DNA of 64,000 nt from Novosphingobium subterraneum (GTDB taxonomy: Bacteria > Pseudomonadota > Alphaproteobacteria > Sphingomonadales > Sphingomonadaceae). The stretch is taken from positions 1 through 64,000 of the forward strand of contig NZ_JRVC01000017.1 in assembly GCF_000807925.1 (NCBI RefSeq). The letters run 5' to 3'. A program made the position numbers and the translations under genes. Shown here piece by piece: positions 30,545 to 46,111 of this stretch (position 1 is its first letter; each line of letters starts with the position of its first letter). Below the pieces are notes generated by a model. It was not told the origin of the DNA, made no database searches, and saw only the letters and a program-made list of their open reading frames with translations.

Positions 30545-31069
30545 TCAGTCGATAGGCACGACGACAAGCCCGGGCCGCTCGATACGCGCGCGGATCGGGG
30601 TGGCGCGAGCACTGGTCCGCACGCGTATCCAGCTGCCCAAGGCACCCGAATCCAAAGCTTCGCCTGACTGCGCGACCGAGAATCCCTCGCCCGCTGCGGT
30701 GATCGTTACCGCTTCGCCGCGGGAGATTGCCGGTGCAGCGGCAGGAGCTTGCCGGGCGTTGCCGGATAGCGCCACGAAAAGCCGCCAGCCTCCGGCATCG
30801 GGACATTGGACGAGAACAGTATCCTGCCGGTTGCCCTGCCAGTCTAGCGACAAGGGCGAGCGGCACGCAGCAAGGCGCAGACGGCGGTCAACCGGCAGCG
30901 TTGCGCCACCTGGCTCACCGATACCGGCGCCGGTAAAAGCCGCCACGGCGCGGTCGATCGCAACGAGATCGTGGAACGGAGAGCTCTGCGCCGAAGAGGG
31001 CGCAGCAGCGGCGCAGGCAATGATCGCACTGGCGACAAGGGTACTGGCAAGAGGATTACGATTGGTCAT
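30545..31069 (-). CDS. flgA: FlgA, P-ring assembly chaperone
   Basis: A 174-residue periplasmic protein that assists FlgI polymerisation. The signal peptide runs to about residue 27 (SAIIACAAAAPSSAQS). Two Cys (LAACRSPL and VLVQCPDAGG) fit the conserved SAF-domain N-terminal part, and the C-terminal SAF-like region includes ISRGEAVTITAAGEGFSV and the final R-P-G-L-V-V-V. The ATG at 31069 is supported by the sigma-54 promoter at 31103-31119, whose start site near 31092 would exclude the longer frame from 31111. Confidence 0.9.
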   Translation of the reverse strand: MTNRNPLASTLVASAIIACAAAAPSSAQSSPFHDLVAIDRAVAAFTGAGIGEPGGATLPVDRRLRLAACRSPLSLDWQGNRQDTVLVQCPDAGGWRLFVALSGNARQAPAAAPAISRGEAVTITAAGEGFSVAQSGEALDSGALGSWIRVRTSARATPIRARIERPGLVVVPID

Positions 31070-31102
31070 TTTCAGGCATCCAGACTGGAGATGCCCATGC
31101 CC

Positions 31103-31119
31103 AGCAATCATCGTGCCAG
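31103..31119 (-). promoter_or_regulatory. Sigma-54 promoter of flgA
   Basis: Read on the minus strand: CTGGCACGATGATTGCT, full match to the consensus with 12-base GG-GC spacing. The expected start is near 31092, 23 bases before the flgA ATG. It lies between flgA and the MotB-like gene, which shows these belong to separate transcripts. Confidence 0.85.
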
Positions 31120-31123
31120 AGCC

Positions 31124-31585
31124 CTAGGTTCCAGACTGGATCACCGGACGGGCCGCGTCGTTGGTCTGCCGCCTGGCCGAGACTTCGCTGGTGTAGACCA
31201 GCGTCACGCTGGCCCCCGCACGCTGGCCGGGCTCAACGAAGATGCGCGCCTGACTTGCGCGCGGGCCGCCACTCTCAGCCAATTGCGCCGCCTGCGCCAT
31301 CGCTGCTGAGCGGCTGTCGCCAGTATATCGGATGACGATCCGCACCTCGAGCCGAGGATCCTTGGCGACCTGGTCCAACCATATGTCCAAGGGTGGCGCG
31401 TTGCTGCCCGCGCTCCAGACCGCAACGGGTTCGCTTTCGGAAACAGCGGCAACGGGCAGGACGGCAGTGGCCGACTGGTGAGCCTTGTCACCTGCCTGGG
31501 AAAGCGCGGAAGCAGTGGCGAGAAAGAGGATCAGGGAAAGGTCGGCAAGGGCGTATTGCCACCCAGTTCCGGCGCGAACGATCAT
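31124..31585 (-). CDS. MotB-like small membrane protein without OmpA domain
   Basis: A 153-residue single-span protein. Residues 9-27 (W-Q-Y-A-L-A-D-L-S-L-I-L-F-L) parallel the MotB transmembrane start W-K-V-A-Y-A-D-F and keep the proton-carrying Asp (Asp15). True MotB proteins then carry a periplasmic OmpA-like peptidoglycan-binding domain; here about 100 residues with no such motif follow. The gene overlaps the MotA-like gene by four bases. ExbD, with the same topology and a conserved membrane Asp, is the alternative reading. Conventional motB is present at 41403-42242. Confidence 0.6.
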   Translation of the reverse strand: MIVRAGTGWQYALADLSLILFLATASALSQAGDKAHQSATAVLPVAAVSESEPVAVWSAGSNAPPLDIWLDQVAKDPRLEVRIVIRYTGDSRSAAMAQAAQLAESGGPRASQARIFVEPGQRAGASVTLVYTSEVSARRQTNDAARPVIQSGT

Positions 31586-32304
31586 GCGGCGGTGCCGCCA
31601 TGGCCGTGCTGGGGGCGCATTCCATGGCCGTGCCCATGCGAAGCGCCGGATACCAGAGATACCGATGTTGGGTGCAGCGAGGATGGCAAGGCCGGTTCGA
31701 TCTGCGCCGAGAGCCAGTCGATCACCTCCTGTCGGTGCCGTTCCTCGTCCTGGGAGCGCCGCTCAACCGCCCGGGCAAGGGGCGCAAGCACGAGATTGGC
31801 CAGCAGCAGGCCATAAAGCGTGGTCAGCACGGCCATCGAGATCGCGCCGCTGAGTGCGCCTTGTTCAAGCCCGGTCGCGGGCAGGCGGCTGAGCGAGACC
31901 AGCGTGCCGACCATGCCGAACACCGGCCCGAGTTCGGCGGCCTGGGCCAATGTGCGGACAGCCGCGTTGGCTGCCGCGATCCTGTTGCGGCGATGGTCAT
32001 GGTGTCGTTCGATCAAGGCATCGAGCGAGCGCGAGCGGATCAGCACGTCGGTCACGTCGTCGAACTCGCGGTCGCCGATCGCGCTGGTGCTGGCGCGCAG
32101 GAGCCCATCGCGGCGAATTGCCGAAACCTGTGCGGCAAGATCAGCCTTGGCCTGAACCGCAGAGAAGCGCTTCGCAAACAGTCCGGCGATGGCCCGGGCA
32201 GTGACCACCAGTTCATGCCGTCCCGAGCGCAGCACGGTGGCCAGCGCGGTTCCGGCAAGGACAATCGACAATGACAGGCCGTCGAAAAGAAGGGCAGGTG
32301 GCAT
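31582..32304 (-). CDS. MotA/TolQ/ExbB proton-channel family protein
   Basis: A 240-residue membrane protein. The C-terminal half contains LGPVFGMVGTLVSL ... AISMAVLTTLYGLLLANLVLAPLARAVERR, closely like the two core helices of MotA/PomA, including the TTLYG motif and conserved Pro positions. The N-terminal part has one clear membrane helix. A His/Gly-rich tail (GHGHGM...HGHGG) ends the protein. It is coupled to the MotB-like gene. ATG 32304 with AGGAGA ten bases upstream is preferred to GTG 32325. A second stator or an accessory energiser of the flagellum are both possible; it diverges from flgB by 216 bases. Confidence 0.72.
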   Translation of the reverse strand: MPPALLFDGLSLSIVLAGTALATVLRSGRHELVVTARAIAGLFAKRFSAVQAKADLAAQVSAIRRDGLLRASTSAIGDREFDDVTDVLIRSRSLDALIERHHDHRRNRIAAANAAVRTLAQAAELGPVFGMVGTLVSLSRLPATGLEQGALSGAISMAVLTTLYGLLLANLVLAPLARAVERRSQDEERHRQEVIDWLSAQIEPALPSSLHPTSVSLVSGASHGHGHGMRPQHGHGGTAA

Positions 32305-32392
32305 GAGCGGAACGTCTCCTGTCACAAGAGAACGGCCGCGCCTTCAGGAATTTCAGTCTGTTGCAAAGCGACGGGCGCGTTTCTGCCGCCAT

Positions 32393-32410
32393 CCGGCAAG
32401 CCCTTGCCGG
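32393..32410. promoter_or_regulatory. CCGGC-N8-GCCGG dyad upstream of flgB
   Basis: CCGGCAAGCCCTTGCCGG is an 18-bp perfect-arm dyad whose centre lies about 88 bases before the predicted flgB transcription start, a normal enhancer distance for a sigma-54 activator. It shares arms and spacing with the two dyads at 44671-44688 and 44703-44720. The arms also resemble, from memory, the Caulobacter ftr element bound by FlbD. Confidence 0.6.
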
Positions 32411-32462: not shown

Positions 32463-32479
32463 TTGGCACGCCCCTTGCT
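32463..32479 (+). promoter_or_regulatory. Sigma-54 promoter of the flgB-motB operon
   Basis: TTGGCACGCCCCTTGCT matches the -24/-12 consensus fully (GG and GC 12 apart) and equals the promoter at 29755-29771. The start site would be near 32490, 31 bases before the flgB ATG. Genes from flgB to motB are closely packed and share one strand. Confidence 0.9.
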
Positions 32480-32520
32480 GAAACACCGGCAGAGTTTTGA
32501 CAGCCAGTGAAGGCAACCCC

Positions 32521-32868
32521 ATGAGCAACTCCCTTTTCGGCATTCACGGCGCGGCGCTGGAATTGCGTTCGCAACGCATGGGCCTGCTGACCTCGAACAT
32601 CGCCAATGCCGCGACGCCCGGCTTCAAGGCCAAGGACATAGACTTCGCAGCTGCGCTCAAGGCCCGCAACGCCGGCATGAGCGAGGACAAGGCGATCGCC
32701 TCGGCCACGCGCTTCCGCGTGCCGGTAATGCCGAGCCTTGATGGCAACACGGTGGAGATGGCGACCGAACAGACGGCATTTGCCGAAAATGCCGTGGGAT
32801 ACTCGGCCACGCTCAACTTCCTCAAGGGCCGGGTCGAGACGATCACCCGCGCGATCAAGGGAGAATAA
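32521..32868 (+). CDS. flgB: FlgB, proximal rod protein
   Basis: A 115-residue rod protein. It carries the flagellar rod N-terminal signature (about 13-38: LRSQRMGLLTSNIANAATPGFKAKDIDF). The C-terminal region AENAVGYSATLNFLKGRVETITRAI has the coiled D0 helix pattern. It is slightly shorter than E. coli FlgB (138). The start ATG 32521 follows AAGG at nine bases. It leads the flgB-motB operon; flgC starts three bases after its stop. Confidence 0.95.
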   Translation: MSNSLFGIHGAALELRSQRMGLLTSNIANAATPGFKAKDIDFAAALKARNAGMSEDKAIASATRFRVPVMPSLDGNTVEMATEQTAFAENAVGYSATLNFLKGRVETITRAIKGE

Positions 32869-40526: not shown

Positions 40527-41390
40527 ATGTTCGTGATTGTCGGCATCGTCATCCTGCTCGCCATGGTTTTCGGCGGCTTCGCCATCACTGGCGGTGACCT
40601 TGGACCGGTCCTGCATGCACTTCCCCACGAGATGCTCATCATCGGCGGGGCCGCCGTCGGCGCGCTCGTCACTGGAAACTCGATGCACGAACTCAAAGGC
40701 ATCGGCGCTGGCTTCACCAAGACCTTCAAGGGCCCCAAGCACAACAAGCAGGATCACGTAGACGTTATCGTGCTGTGCACCAAACTGATGAAGATCTTGC
40801 GCAGCGATGGACCGGTCGCGCTTGAAAGCCATGTCACCGATCCGAAGAACTCTCCGATCTTCGCCGAGTATCCCCGCCTACTGGCCAACCCTGCCCTGAC
40901 TTCGCTGATCTGCGACACGCTGACCTTGATCGTCGTATCTTCGGGCACGCTGGAAGTGCATGCGGTGGAGGAGGTGATGGATCATGCGATGAAGACGCAT
41001 TTCCATGAGGAGCACGAAGCCCAGCACGCCATCCAGGGCTTGGCGGATGCGCTGCCGGCGCTGGGCATCGTCGCGGCAGTACTCGGCGTGGTGAAGACCA
41101 TGGGATCGATCGACAAGCCGCCGGCCATTCTCGGCGCGATGATCGGTTCGGCGCTCGTCGGCACGTTCCTCGGCATTCTGCTCGCCTACGGGATGGTTGG
41201 CCCGATCGCAGGCCGGCTCAAGCAGGTGCTCGAGCAGGACGAGATGATTTTCCAGGCGGTAAAGCAGGTCATCATCGCCAGCCTCCACGGCTGGCCGCAA
41301 CCCCTCGTCGTCGAAAGCGCGCGCTCCGGTCTGGGGCATGCCTTCCGCCCGGGACTTTCCGAACTGCTCGACGCGATGCGCGGCCGCTAA
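40527..41390 (+). CDS. motA: MotA, flagellar stator proton channel
   Basis: A 287-residue four-span stator protein. The opening FVIVGIVILLAMVFGGFAITGG is a membrane helix. The cytoplasmic loop has Arg/Glu-rich parts that contact FliG. The signature helices 3-4 include ALPALGIVAAVLGVVKTMGS and GSALVGTFLGILLAYGMVGPIA with the two conserved Pro. The length equals E. coli MotA (295). GTG-started motB follows twelve bases downstream. This conventional pair is distinct from the smaller MotA/MotB-like genes at 31124-32304. Confidence 0.96.
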   Translation: MFVIVGIVILLAMVFGGFAITGGDLGPVLHALPHEMLIIGGAAVGALVTGNSMHELKGIGAGFTKTFKGPKHNKQDHVDVIVLCTKLMKILRSDGPVALESHVTDPKNSPIFAEYPRLLANPALTSLICDTLTLIVVSSGTLEVHAVEEVMDHAMKTHFHEEHEAQHAIQGLADALPALGIVAAVLGVVKTMGSIDKPPAILGAMIGSALVGTFLGILLAYGMVGPIAGRLKQVLEQDEMIFQAVKQVIIASLHGWPQPLVVESARSGLGHAFRPGLSELLDAMRGR

Positions 41391-41402: not shown

Positions 41403-42242
41403 GTGGCCAAGGCACCGACCAAGGGGAAGAACGAACCCCCGAAGCCCATCATCGTCAAGAAGATCACCATCGTTGCCGGTGGGCATCACGGCGGCGCCTG
41501 GAAAGTGGCCTATGCCGACTTCGTGACCGCGATGATGGCGTTCTTCCTGCTGATGTGGCTGCTGGGCGCAACGACCGAAAAGCAGCGCAAGGGCATTGCC
41601 GACTACTTCACTCCTACACTCGTCAAGATGCGGCAGGGAAGTGCCGGCGGGTATGGCGTACTCGGCGGATCATCGCTGACCGATGCCGACGACTATCCGC
41701 ATCGCGCCGGCCAGACCGGCAACAAGACCCTGTCGGTGCCCCGCGATGCCACAGGCGGCCCCAAGGAGGGAGGCAGCAAGATCAAGCGCTCCCAGGTGAT
41801 GAAGGAACGTATCGCCCAGAAGCTCGCGCAATCCGAAAAGCTCAAGAAGCTGGCCCGGCAGGTTCGCATGACCGAGACTCCCGAAGGCGTCCGCCTGGAT
41901 CTGGTGGACGATGCGGATTTCTCGATGTTCCTGCTGGGCACGACCGTGCTGACGCCTGACGCCGCCGAACTTCTCCGCGCGATCGGCCAGGCCATCGCGC
42001 CCGACCCGACCCAGCTGACGATCCGCGGCCACACGGACTCCCTGCCGTGGAAGAACGGCGTGGCCAACAACTGGTCGCTGTCAGCCGGTCGCGCCGAAAC
42101 GACACGCCAGACCTTGATGCGCCAGGGCATTGCCGAGCCCCGCTTCCGCCGGATCGAGGGCGTTGCCGACCGCGAACCGCTGGTGCAGAACAATCCGGCC
42201 GACCCGCGCAATCGGCGTATGTCGATTTTGATTACCGGCTGA
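41403..42242 (+). CDS. motB: MotB, flagellar stator peptidoglycan anchor
   Basis: A 279-residue stator protein. The transmembrane proton site is G-A-W-K-V-A-Y-A-D-F with Asp39. A periplasmic linker leads to an OmpA-like domain (about 185-278) with IRGHTDSLPW and NNWSLSAGRAETTRQ, which binds peptidoglycan. The start is GTG 41403 with AAGGAG eight bases upstream. It closes the flgB operon; no clear terminator follows before the S8 peptidase gene. Confidence 0.96.
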   Translation: MAKAPTKGKNEPPKPIIVKKITIVAGGHHGGAWKVAYADFVTAMMAFFLLMWLLGATTEKQRKGIADYFTPTLVKMRQGSAGGYGVLGGSSLTDADDYPHRAGQTGNKTLSVPRDATGGPKEGGSKIKRSQVMKERIAQKLAQSEKLKKLARQVRMTETPEGVRLDLVDDADFSMFLLGTTVLTPDAAELLRAIGQAIAPDPTQLTIRGHTDSLPWKNGVANNWSLSAGRAETTRQTLMRQGIAEPRFRRIEGVADREPLVQNNPADPRNRRMSILITG

Positions 42243-42389
42243 TTAAGCAATAAACTGACACTATCATGAAATATTGGTGAAAGTTCCGGTTGCAAGTGCA
42301 ACTGCTTCACTGCAGCTTCCTGTCATTGCGGGGTGCGTCGTGCGCAAGCCACGAACCGCAACACCCAAGGGACAGGGAGTTCAATCCAG

Positions 42390-43616
42390 ATGCGCAAGTT
42401 TGCAGCTTTGGCCACCGTATCGGCGGTGGCATTGGCCGGAATAGTTTTTGCCGCCGCGGGGGGCGGGAAGGCCACGGGTTCGGGAGCGGTGCTGCTGCCC
42501 GCAACGTCGGGTTCTATTGCCGCAGTTTCAGCCCGGCCCACTGCAGCGGCAGTCGCCGAATCGGCCATCCCCGACAGCTGGATCTGTGTCTTCAAGAAGG
42601 GCAGCGTCGCGCCGGGTGCCGAGCAGGCCGAGGCCAGCAAGGTCACCGGCAAGGCTGGCGGCAAGATCGGGCACGTCTACCGTTACGCACTGCAGGGCTT
42701 CTCGATCAATCTGCCAGCGCAAGGTGCCGCAGCCGTCGCCAAGCACAACCCGAACATCGAGTATTGCGAGGCCGACCAGGTCGCCACCGTGATCGACCCG
42801 ATCAATGCGTTGGCGAAGCCGGGCGGCGGCGGCGGTTCAACCACCGAGACGACGCCCGCAGGCATCACGCGAGTTGGTGGTGGAGCGGCTTATGCCGGCT
42901 CCGGACGGGCATTCGTGATCGATAGCGGCATCTTCCTGACGCATCCCGATCTGAACGTCGACACCGCCCTCAGCCGCAACTTCGTGGCGCGCGAAACCTC
43001 GCCGAATGACCTGAACGGCCATGGTACGCACGTAGCCGGTACGATTGCCGCCAAGCTCAATGGCGCCGGCGTCGTCGGCGTAGCAGCCGGGGCAAAGGTC
43101 GTCGCGGTGCGCGTGCTCGATCGCCGTGGCAGCGGTGCCTATTCCGATGTCATCGCTGGAGTCGATTACGTCGCCTCGGTGGGCCAGGCGGGCGACGTCG
43201 CCAACATGAGCCTTGGCGGACCAGTATCCGACGCACTCGACACGGCAGTGATCAACGCCTCCAACAGCAGCAAGGTCATCTTTGCCCTTGCCGCCGGTAA
43301 CGAAACCGATGATGCCAACAATCACTCGCCCGCGCGCGCCGATGGCCCGTATATCTACACCGTGGCGGCGGTGAACAGCTCGGACACATTTGCCAGCTTC
43401 TCGAACTACTCCGTGATCAACGATCCGGTGGACTTTGCCGAACCGGGCGTATCGATCCTCTCGACGTGGCTCAACGGCGGCTACAACACGATCTCCGGCA
43501 CATCCATGGCGACACCGCACCTTGCCGGTCTTGTCCTCATCGGTGGCCCGCGCAGCGACGGGCGCCTGTCCACCGCAGCGCCGAATGGCGTCAGGTTCCC
43601 GATCGGCGTGAAATGA
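42390..43616 (+). CDS. Secreted subtilase (S8) serine peptidase
   Basis: A 408-residue secreted peptidase. The signal peptide lies at residues 1-22 (LATVSAVALAGIVFAAAGG). An I9-like propeptide spans about 60-130 with SWICVFKKGS and IEYCEADQ, whose two Cys may pair. The S8 domain has the triad Asp (VIDSGIFLTHPD), His (NGHGTHVAGT) and Ser (SGTSMATPHLAG). The upstream 147 bases contain a GTTGCA-AG-TGCAAC dyad (42287-42300). It sits between motB and flagellin, but nothing else ties it to motility. The start ATG 42390 is chosen for the signal peptide; the upstream frame lacks one. Confidence 0.92.
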   Translation: MRKFAALATVSAVALAGIVFAAAGGGKATGSGAVLLPATSGSIAAVSARPTAAAVAESAIPDSWICVFKKGSVAPGAEQAEASKVTGKAGGKIGHVYRYALQGFSINLPAQGAAAVAKHNPNIEYCEADQVATVIDPINALAKPGGGGGSTTETTPAGITRVGGGAAYAGSGRAFVIDSGIFLTHPDLNVDTALSRNFVARETSPNDLNGHGTHVAGTIAAKLNGAGVVGVAAGAKVVAVRVLDRRGSGAYSDVIAGVDYVASVGQAGDVANMSLGGPVSDALDTAVINASNSSKVIFALAAGNETDDANNHSPARADGPYIYTVAAVNSSDTFASFSNYSVINDPVDFAEPGVSILSTWLNGGYNTISGTSMATPHLAGLVLIGGPRSDGRLSTAAPNGVRFPIGVK

Positions 43617-44781: not shown

Positions 44782-44827
44782 CGCGCGAAAGAAGGTCACA
44801 GACAGGATGGTTAACAGGGGTCTTGAA

Positions 44828-46107
<1,280 letters not shown>

Positions 46108-46111
<4 letters not shown>

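Follow-up and report, generated by a model that had tools for sequence, protein, structure and literature searches.

The window analysed, a 64,000-nucleotide stretch of contig NZ_JRVC01000017.1 of Novosphingobium subterraneum, carries on its minus strand, between flgB and flgA, a pair of genes referred to below as A and B. Relatives of the pair are divided into a near group, to which the window's own genes belong, and divergent members. The features of the locus, together with the canonical stator genes of the same window, are as follows.

30545..31111, minus strand: flgA (P-ring chaperone), downstream neighbour of B
31104..31118, minus strand: sigma-54-type site TGGCACGATGATTGC between B and flgA (pattern match, no mismatch)
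31124..31585, minus strand: subunit B, a mini-MotB of 153 residues
31582..31585, minus strand: ATGA overlap of four bases between the stop of A and the start of B
31582..32304, minus strand: subunit A, a PomA/MotA-type stator A subunit without TM1, 240 residues
32393..32410, no strand assigned: palindrome CCGGCA-N6-TGCCGG (18 bases) between flgB and A
32464..32478, plus strand: sigma-54-type site facing the flgB operon (pattern match, no mismatch)
32497..32868, plus strand: flgB, divergent neighbour of A
40527..41390, plus strand: canonical motA (TIGR03818, 328 bits, cut-off 303.8)
41403..42242, plus strand: canonical motB (MotB_plug and OmpA domains)

A starts with an ATG, and initiation at the in-frame GTG at 32325 would lengthen it by seven residues. 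A and B are likely to be translationally coupled through the ATGA overlap; among the other near-group pairs the overlap was four bases in 41 of 43 and one base in the remaining two, with starts picked by script. Behind B the minus-strand order continues with flgA, flgM, flgN (a call below the Pfam cut-off), a gene for an SLT-domain protein and flhA, and in the opposite direction from the pair lie flgB, flgC, flgD and flgE. The canonical motA–motB genes were found about 8 kb away. The original prediction, which had described a coupled MotA/MotB-like pair beside flgA and a separate complete motA–motB pair, was correct on both counts. Four MotA_ExbB matches were found in the genome, namely the canonical MotA, A and two stronger matches that were taken for TolQ/ExbB.

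When a relaxed pattern was used, sigma-54-type sites facing flgB and between B and flgA were present in 12/12 Novosphingobium loci including the window; none was found facing A in any of the 12. The pattern had three exact matches in the window, the ones used here; with one mismatch it had 39 against 34.1 expected, which is not an enrichment. The site between B and flgA covers the first ATG of flgA, so that by inspection translation may begin instead at the ATG at 31069. The CCGGCA-N6-TGCCGG palindrome lay between flgB and A in 11/12 loci (relaxed pattern); in the window it was found ten times with at most one mismatch against 0.79 expected, the exact occurrences being at 32393 and 44703. It resembles an FlbD (ftr) site. 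The sigma-54 activator gene at 44807–46111 was taken for FlbD, which binds ftr sites (PMC3930126), and the ten palindromes possibly represent an FlbD regulon.

Subunit A matched Pfam MotA_ExbB with 41.8 bits (cut-off 22.9) and contains the core motifs G-M-V-G-T and T-T-L-Y-G, as expected from its earlier description as a 240-residue protein with a MotA/PomA core. Pfam MotA_N, which is present in the canonical MotA, is absent from A. The best NCBIfam model was PomA, with the match starting at profile position 28; at a threshold of E <= 1e-3 this model was matched by 46 of 47 A homologues, and 46 also matched MotP. A profile search of the PDB with the 47 A proteins returned PomA (3e-26), followed by MotA chains and a single chance match; ExbB and TolQ were absent from the matches at E <= 10.

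The AlphaFold model of A (pLDDT 88.9) was superposed on PomA 24–229 with Z 18.6 over 203 residues at 2.4 Å; the best PomA chain gave Z 18.9, compared with at most 10.7 for TolQ/ExbB. The fold comparison proposed with the original prediction, made here for A on its own, thus came out on the stator side. In the model, helix 9–26 is followed by helices 29–42, 49–66 and 79–91, which precede the long helix 94–139, and by a further long helix 148–205; helix 94–139 (TM3) is continuous and unbroken. TM1 is missing, the alignment beginning at PomA residue 24 and profile position 28, and by eye the divergent members also have no TM1 ahead of TM2. Because of the PomA profile match, the PomA superposition from residue 24 and the lack of MotA_N, A is assigned as a PomA-type A subunit without TM1. 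The His-rich tail remarked on earlier is present in the window's A, where it is modelled with low confidence; at least five His occur in 5/47 A proteins, and the tail is not a conserved feature.

Among the near-group A rows P127, T134, Y164 and P175 were found in 45/45, T162 in 44/45 and T161 in 41/45 (Ser in four). PomA T158, T185 and T186 have a role in Na+ use, and the residues at these positions are kept in A. MotA R90 and E98 are FliG contacts (PMC12505986); their positions were transferred to PomA numbering via the A-profile/PDB alignment. Canonical MotA from the window and ten further loci has both residues in 11/11, whereas near-group A has R at the R90 position in 26/45 and E at the E98 position in 11/45, the window having S72 there. 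The corresponding counts were R in 3/15 and D in 15/15 for divergent A (15 rows; 3 of 18 were gapped), and R in 27/28 and E in 15/28 for the FlbD-linked orphan proteins described below (28 rows with letters out of 41; 13 were gapped). The argument from missing FliG-contact charges would, as judged from these alignments, apply to the near group alone. Apart from the contact charges, the cytoplasmic domain of A is PomA-like.

The N-terminal part of B contains GWQYALADLSLILF, and W9, D15, L16, I19, L20, F21 and R114 are invariant in all 44 near-group members, in keeping with the MotB-type Asp15 that had been proposed for this 153-residue protein. The window's B gave nothing better than 0.1 in Pfam and nothing in NCBIfam, none of the 44 near-group proteins had a MotB or OmpA match in Pfam, and a sequence search of the PDB with the window's B (P0002) returned chance-like matches only. 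The AlphaFold model of B has a mean pLDDT of 86.4, with ten-residue means of 94–97 over residues 51–130. It consists of one long helix (8–36), a short linker of about 18 residues to strand 55–58 and elements 55–58, 66–73, 79–87, 92–110, 114–119 and 124–131 in b-a-b-a-b-b order, residues 52–133 being modelled as a compact OmpA-like domain; the corresponding E. coli reference stretch comprises 52 residues (PMC12505986). In a second-look structural alignment SiiA was the top match (Z 7.4, 3.0 Å, 76 residues), with OmpA-like domains at Z 7.3–6.6 and Helicobacter pylori MotB at 6.8–6.7; eight of the 50 rows were other folds (dihydrodipicolinate reductases or DegV, Z 6.4–5.5). Foldseek alone returned nothing at E <= 0.001, and neither did a search of a viral fold library at the same threshold. 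Taken alone, the structural matches of the model are only suggestive of an OmpA-like fold. This fold is nevertheless taken as probable here because divergent B proteins in the same gene slot match Pfam OmpA, and in our view it is the relatives that decide the question.

The divergent B proteins that could be aligned (n = 17) are 147–218 residues long and, in a joint alignment, match up with the MotB of the window. Seven were run against Pfam, of which six matched OmpA at E <= 0.001 and MotB_plug at E <= 0.01; two of the OmpA matches were above the cut-off and one was equal to it, and three of the MotB_plug matches were above theirs. The seventh matched MotB_plug and OmpA weakly (0.025 and 0.046). 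L075, which carries a B of the near kind, gave no Pfam match. The earlier statement that B has no OmpA-like domain thus holds for the sequence libraries but not for the modelled fold, nor for the divergent relatives.

MotB contacts peptidoglycan through the Arg of LSxxRA and the Asp of GHTD. The window's B has Gln at the Arg position. In the corresponding alignment column, where the alignment is gapped, R was found in 15/44 near-group and 17/17 divergent proteins and Q in 14/44 of the near group, window included. D occupied the GHTD Asp column in 0/44 near-group and 4/17 divergent proteins, and a plug-like [AFL][FL]G segment was recognized in 3/44 and 10/17, respectively. Loss of wall binding is not proven by these columns, since the Arg is kept in 15/44 near-group proteins and the Asp is rare among divergent B.

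The retained Arg in these near-group proteins, and the OmpA domain with Arg in the divergent relatives, are what would be expected if A–B were a genuine second stator that generates torque and is exchanged with MotAB in certain circumstances (such as the use of another coupling ion), its anchor being either a partner protein or the small OmpA-like domain used in a non-standard way. Dual stators are common, and a PomA-type A that keeps the residues at PomA T158, T185 and T186, a PomA-like cytoplasmic domain and an unbroken helix 94–139 would suit such a role. In Cereibacter the periplasmic proteins MotK and MotE serve the stator MotB2 (PMC10954123). A true stator is, however, difficult to reconcile with the lack of TM1, with the shortness of the linker (about 18 residues) and of the periplasmic part, which would limit the reach to the wall, and with the poor conservation of FliG-contact and peptidoglycan-contact residues in the near group; we regard this reading as rather unlikely.

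Near-group A adjoined flgB in 46/46 loci other than the window, and flgA was detected within the fetched stretch in 41/46; the constant place beside flgB and the dN/dS values given below show the pair to be more than a chance finding. A B-like frame followed A in 63/65 slot loci; the exceptions were L059, at a contig end, and L045, where B is absent. At L045 (genome G019) B is gone, flgA stands directly after A, and the motifs GT and TTLYG have disappeared from A, which gives the impression that the two subunits decay together.

In an 86-row tree without outgroup, near and divergent A formed one side of a branch (100/99) and the FlbD-linked orphans a separate group (98/97). Near-group A formed a single group (100/100) on a long stem of 1.52, which joins the divergent rows L044 and L056–L059 (96/84). 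A tree with outgroup split 27 stator-side rows from three TolQ/ExbB rows at 100/100; in this small tree the A family was a single clade in just 36% of the bootstrap trees. The alignments did not include L047 and L048, which share their contigs with L009 and L010, or L054, where the contig ends and A is missing. The Pfam matches of the divergent relatives, the residue columns and the tree together indicate that B arose from a MotB-like ancestor that had an OmpA domain, and that the wall signature was given up in the near group along its fast-changing stem.

The dN/dS values were 0.149 (A) and 0.173 (B) against N. jiangmenense and 0.143 (A) and 0.262 (B) against N. taihuense, at dS of 0.9–1.2, which is near saturation; they place A–B under purifying selection. 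Values of 0.14–0.26, the invariant D15 (44/44) and the presence of B in every FliG-positive genome of the genus sample make it highly improbable that A–B is a relic of a former second stator under loss, even though TM1, plug and wall residues would have been lost stepwise and L045 has no B and an A without GT and TTLYG motifs.

The family sample comprised 149 genomes, with FliG_C in 95 and MotA1 above the cut-off in 93. Matches to A were obtained in 72 genomes and accepted in 68; G017, G050 and G057 were dropped because the only match was a weak one in a frame of about 1,080–1,090 residues, and G105 because the match was motA. All 68 accepted loci were read, and 65 lay in the flgB slot; the remaining three (G007, G052 and G056) were FlbD-linked orphans situated before an FlbD-like gene. 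Slot A was thus found in 63/95 FliG-positive and 2/54 FliG-negative genomes. Both FliG-negative carriers (G117 and G143) are assemblies in about 300 contigs, and in both flgB and flgA adjoin A. In a genus sample of 25 genomes, the window's included, B was present in 20/20 FliG-positive and 0/5 FliG-negative genomes. The genomes behind the family and genus counts are related and not independent. The proposed tie of a second stator-like pair to the flagellum is borne out by this distribution.

A–B is dispensable for having a flagellum, because slot A is missing from 32/95 FliG-positive family genomes. MotA1 was above the cut-off in 63/65 slot-A genomes, the exceptions being G036 and G143; the latter is a fragmented assembly, in which the MotA1 match is A itself. 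In G122 the flgB and flgA matches lie 248 bases apart with no A–B between them, G030 has a flagellar cluster and no A match, and the PF01618 matches of G005 are TolQ/ExbB-like and motA only. A–B is therefore regarded as an accessory insert, given MotA1 in 63/65 carriers and syntenic clusters without the pair. Outside the family, the best 30 matches per search were taken from 289 genomes belonging to the class and 118 belonging to the order; of the 38 loci read among these best matches, 37 were FlbD-linked orphans and one was a PomA with PomB (L098). A query with the window's B (P0002), which is blind to divergent B, found nothing in 16 genomes from the order's other families.

A–B was compared with known systems. 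It shares with ExbBD/TolQR (the GIT class) a three-TM A subunit and a short B without plug but differs from them in that A is distant in sequence, fold score and tree, TM3 of A is unbroken and the modelled elements of B follow the OmpA-like b-a-b-a-b-b order. TM3 of ExbB/TolQ is kinked or broken (PMC12505986). Profile, fold, tree and loci all gave the opposite of a TolQR/ExbBD homology without flagellar association, the counter-case named with the original prediction. Neither TonB nor TolA was found among the 28 window proteins scanned.

A flagellum-dedicated energiser of the ExbBD/TolQR kind, without plug or firm anchor, might still drive a nearby periplasmic step, for which the FlgA/FlgI P-ring, passage of the L-ring and the operon's lytic enzyme are candidates. 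Such a function would agree with the place of A–B ahead of flgA, flgM and flgN being frequently detected further on, and the reductions seen in A–B (three TM helices, no long plug and linker, a compact periplasmic domain) mirror those of non-flagellar units as given in PMC12505986. It is nonetheless judged unlikely on account of the descent and fold of A, which are those of a stator and not of Exb/Tol, the lack of TonB/TolA among the scanned window genes and the unbroken TM3, unlike that of ExbB/TolQ as described there.

With PomAB/MotAB, A–B has in common the sequence and fold of A from PomA residue 24 on, the channel Pro, Thr and Tyr of A and the Asp of B, the A-then-B order with overlap, the flagellar locus and, as predicted for B, an OmpA-like periplasmic fold. 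It differs in that A is without TM1 and B without a long plug and linker, in that the peptidoglycan- and FliG-contact residues are not conserved in the near group, and in that A–B is additional to MotA1 in 63/65 family genomes. According to PMC12505986, FIT flagellar stators share a four-helix fold, a plug and linker and an expanded OmpA domain. A torque-generating interface of at least four helices is another FIT trait; the model of A has helices 29–42, 49–66 and 79–91 ahead of helix 94–139 and superposes on PomA, and the contact charges are not conserved in the near group. When checked for the other FIT traits, A was found to have a flagellar-type domain with the channel residues and, in the model, a continuous TM3, but not the four-helix square fold, and B had neither the plug and linker nor the expanded OmpA domain. 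Because these three traits are lacking, A–B is not filed as a flagellar stator, and it is not filed as Exb/Tol either.

Two further systems resemble the pair in part. SiiAB of Salmonella SPI-4 is a stator-like channel that serves another machine, the SPI-4 secretion system, and the peptidoglycan-binding domain of SiiA was the top structural match of B; machine and genomic setting differ from those of A–B, and the Z score is below the level that would prove kinship. AglRQS, the gliding motor of Myxococcus, works in motility and is not known to have a wall-binding domain of its own; unlike A–B, it is not flagellar. It is named as a 5:2 motor in PMC9389320. No description of the A–B pair was found among the titles and abstract beginnings of the open-licence literature searched.

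The reading that we favour, with a confidence slightly above even, is that A–B is an accessory of the flagellum, an ion-driven unit derived from a stator whose anchoring to the wall has been weakened, and is not the main torque generator. By analogy, it most likely works like any 5:2 ion-driven motor: five A subunits would assemble with two B subunits, and ions passing Asp15 would make the ring of A subunits rotate around the two B subunits, as happens in other motors of the 5:2 type. B probably does without the usual wall grip, and because of this it may instead either dock on a basal-body component in the periplasm or move a partner there. The motion would then serve an auxiliary step, such as basal-body assembly or gating or the fine control of the motor, with the bulk torque coming from MotAB.

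As a tentative extension of the favoured reading, which we consider possible though doubtful, a stator may have been converted stepwise within the family into a weakly anchored or unanchored motor that powers another flagellar step and does not act on FliG. If so, a second motor with a new job would be at work inside the flagellum alongside ordinary MotAB, and intermediates that keep the wall-binding Arg would survive in sister genera. The interest of A–B is that it combines stator descent and a family-wide tie to the flagellum with the lack, in the window's group, of the three shared FIT traits. Relatives in the same slot keep part of these traits and so offer a natural series in which the need for each stator part can be followed, and it becomes testable whether a flagellum can be served by a 5:2 motor with weak anchoring.

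G036, with A–B and FliG and no MotA1 or MotB match, was considered as a case of A–B acting as the only stator. The idea was rejected because the flagellar locus of this genome shows decay. Within the 160 kb that were searched, both flgB and flgF are split, fliF is matched in its C-terminal part only, and no flgK, flgL, motA, motB or flbD nor any frame labelled fliE or fliM was found, several of the gene labels being guessed by position. This decaying cluster (L151–L158) lies in a one-contig genome, and its A and B frames are still open.

A separate PomA-like protein of four-TM length, with no MotB beside it and directly before an FlbD-like sigma-54 activator, was observed in 39/41 loci (L080–L105, L119–L131, L068 and L074); the exceptions in this list are L098, a PomA with full PomB, and L128, an A in the flgB slot. 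By eye, the orphan often stands behind a frame that ends like FliN. It resembles A in being PomA-type, in lying in a flagellar cluster and in being separate from the canonical MotA, and differs from A in having room for TM1 before TM2, no adjoining B and another gene slot. To judge from these loci, an orphan stator A subunit appears to be widespread in Alphaproteobacteria.

Weak matches to A were also seen within frames of about 1,080–1,090 residues, for example at G000:C13:51446-52015 and at similar places in other genomes of the family; they are possibly due to chance. In the window, motB is followed on the plus strand by a frame (42333–43616) for a subtilase-like protease, in which GHGTHVAG and SGTSMATPHLAG were read by eye.
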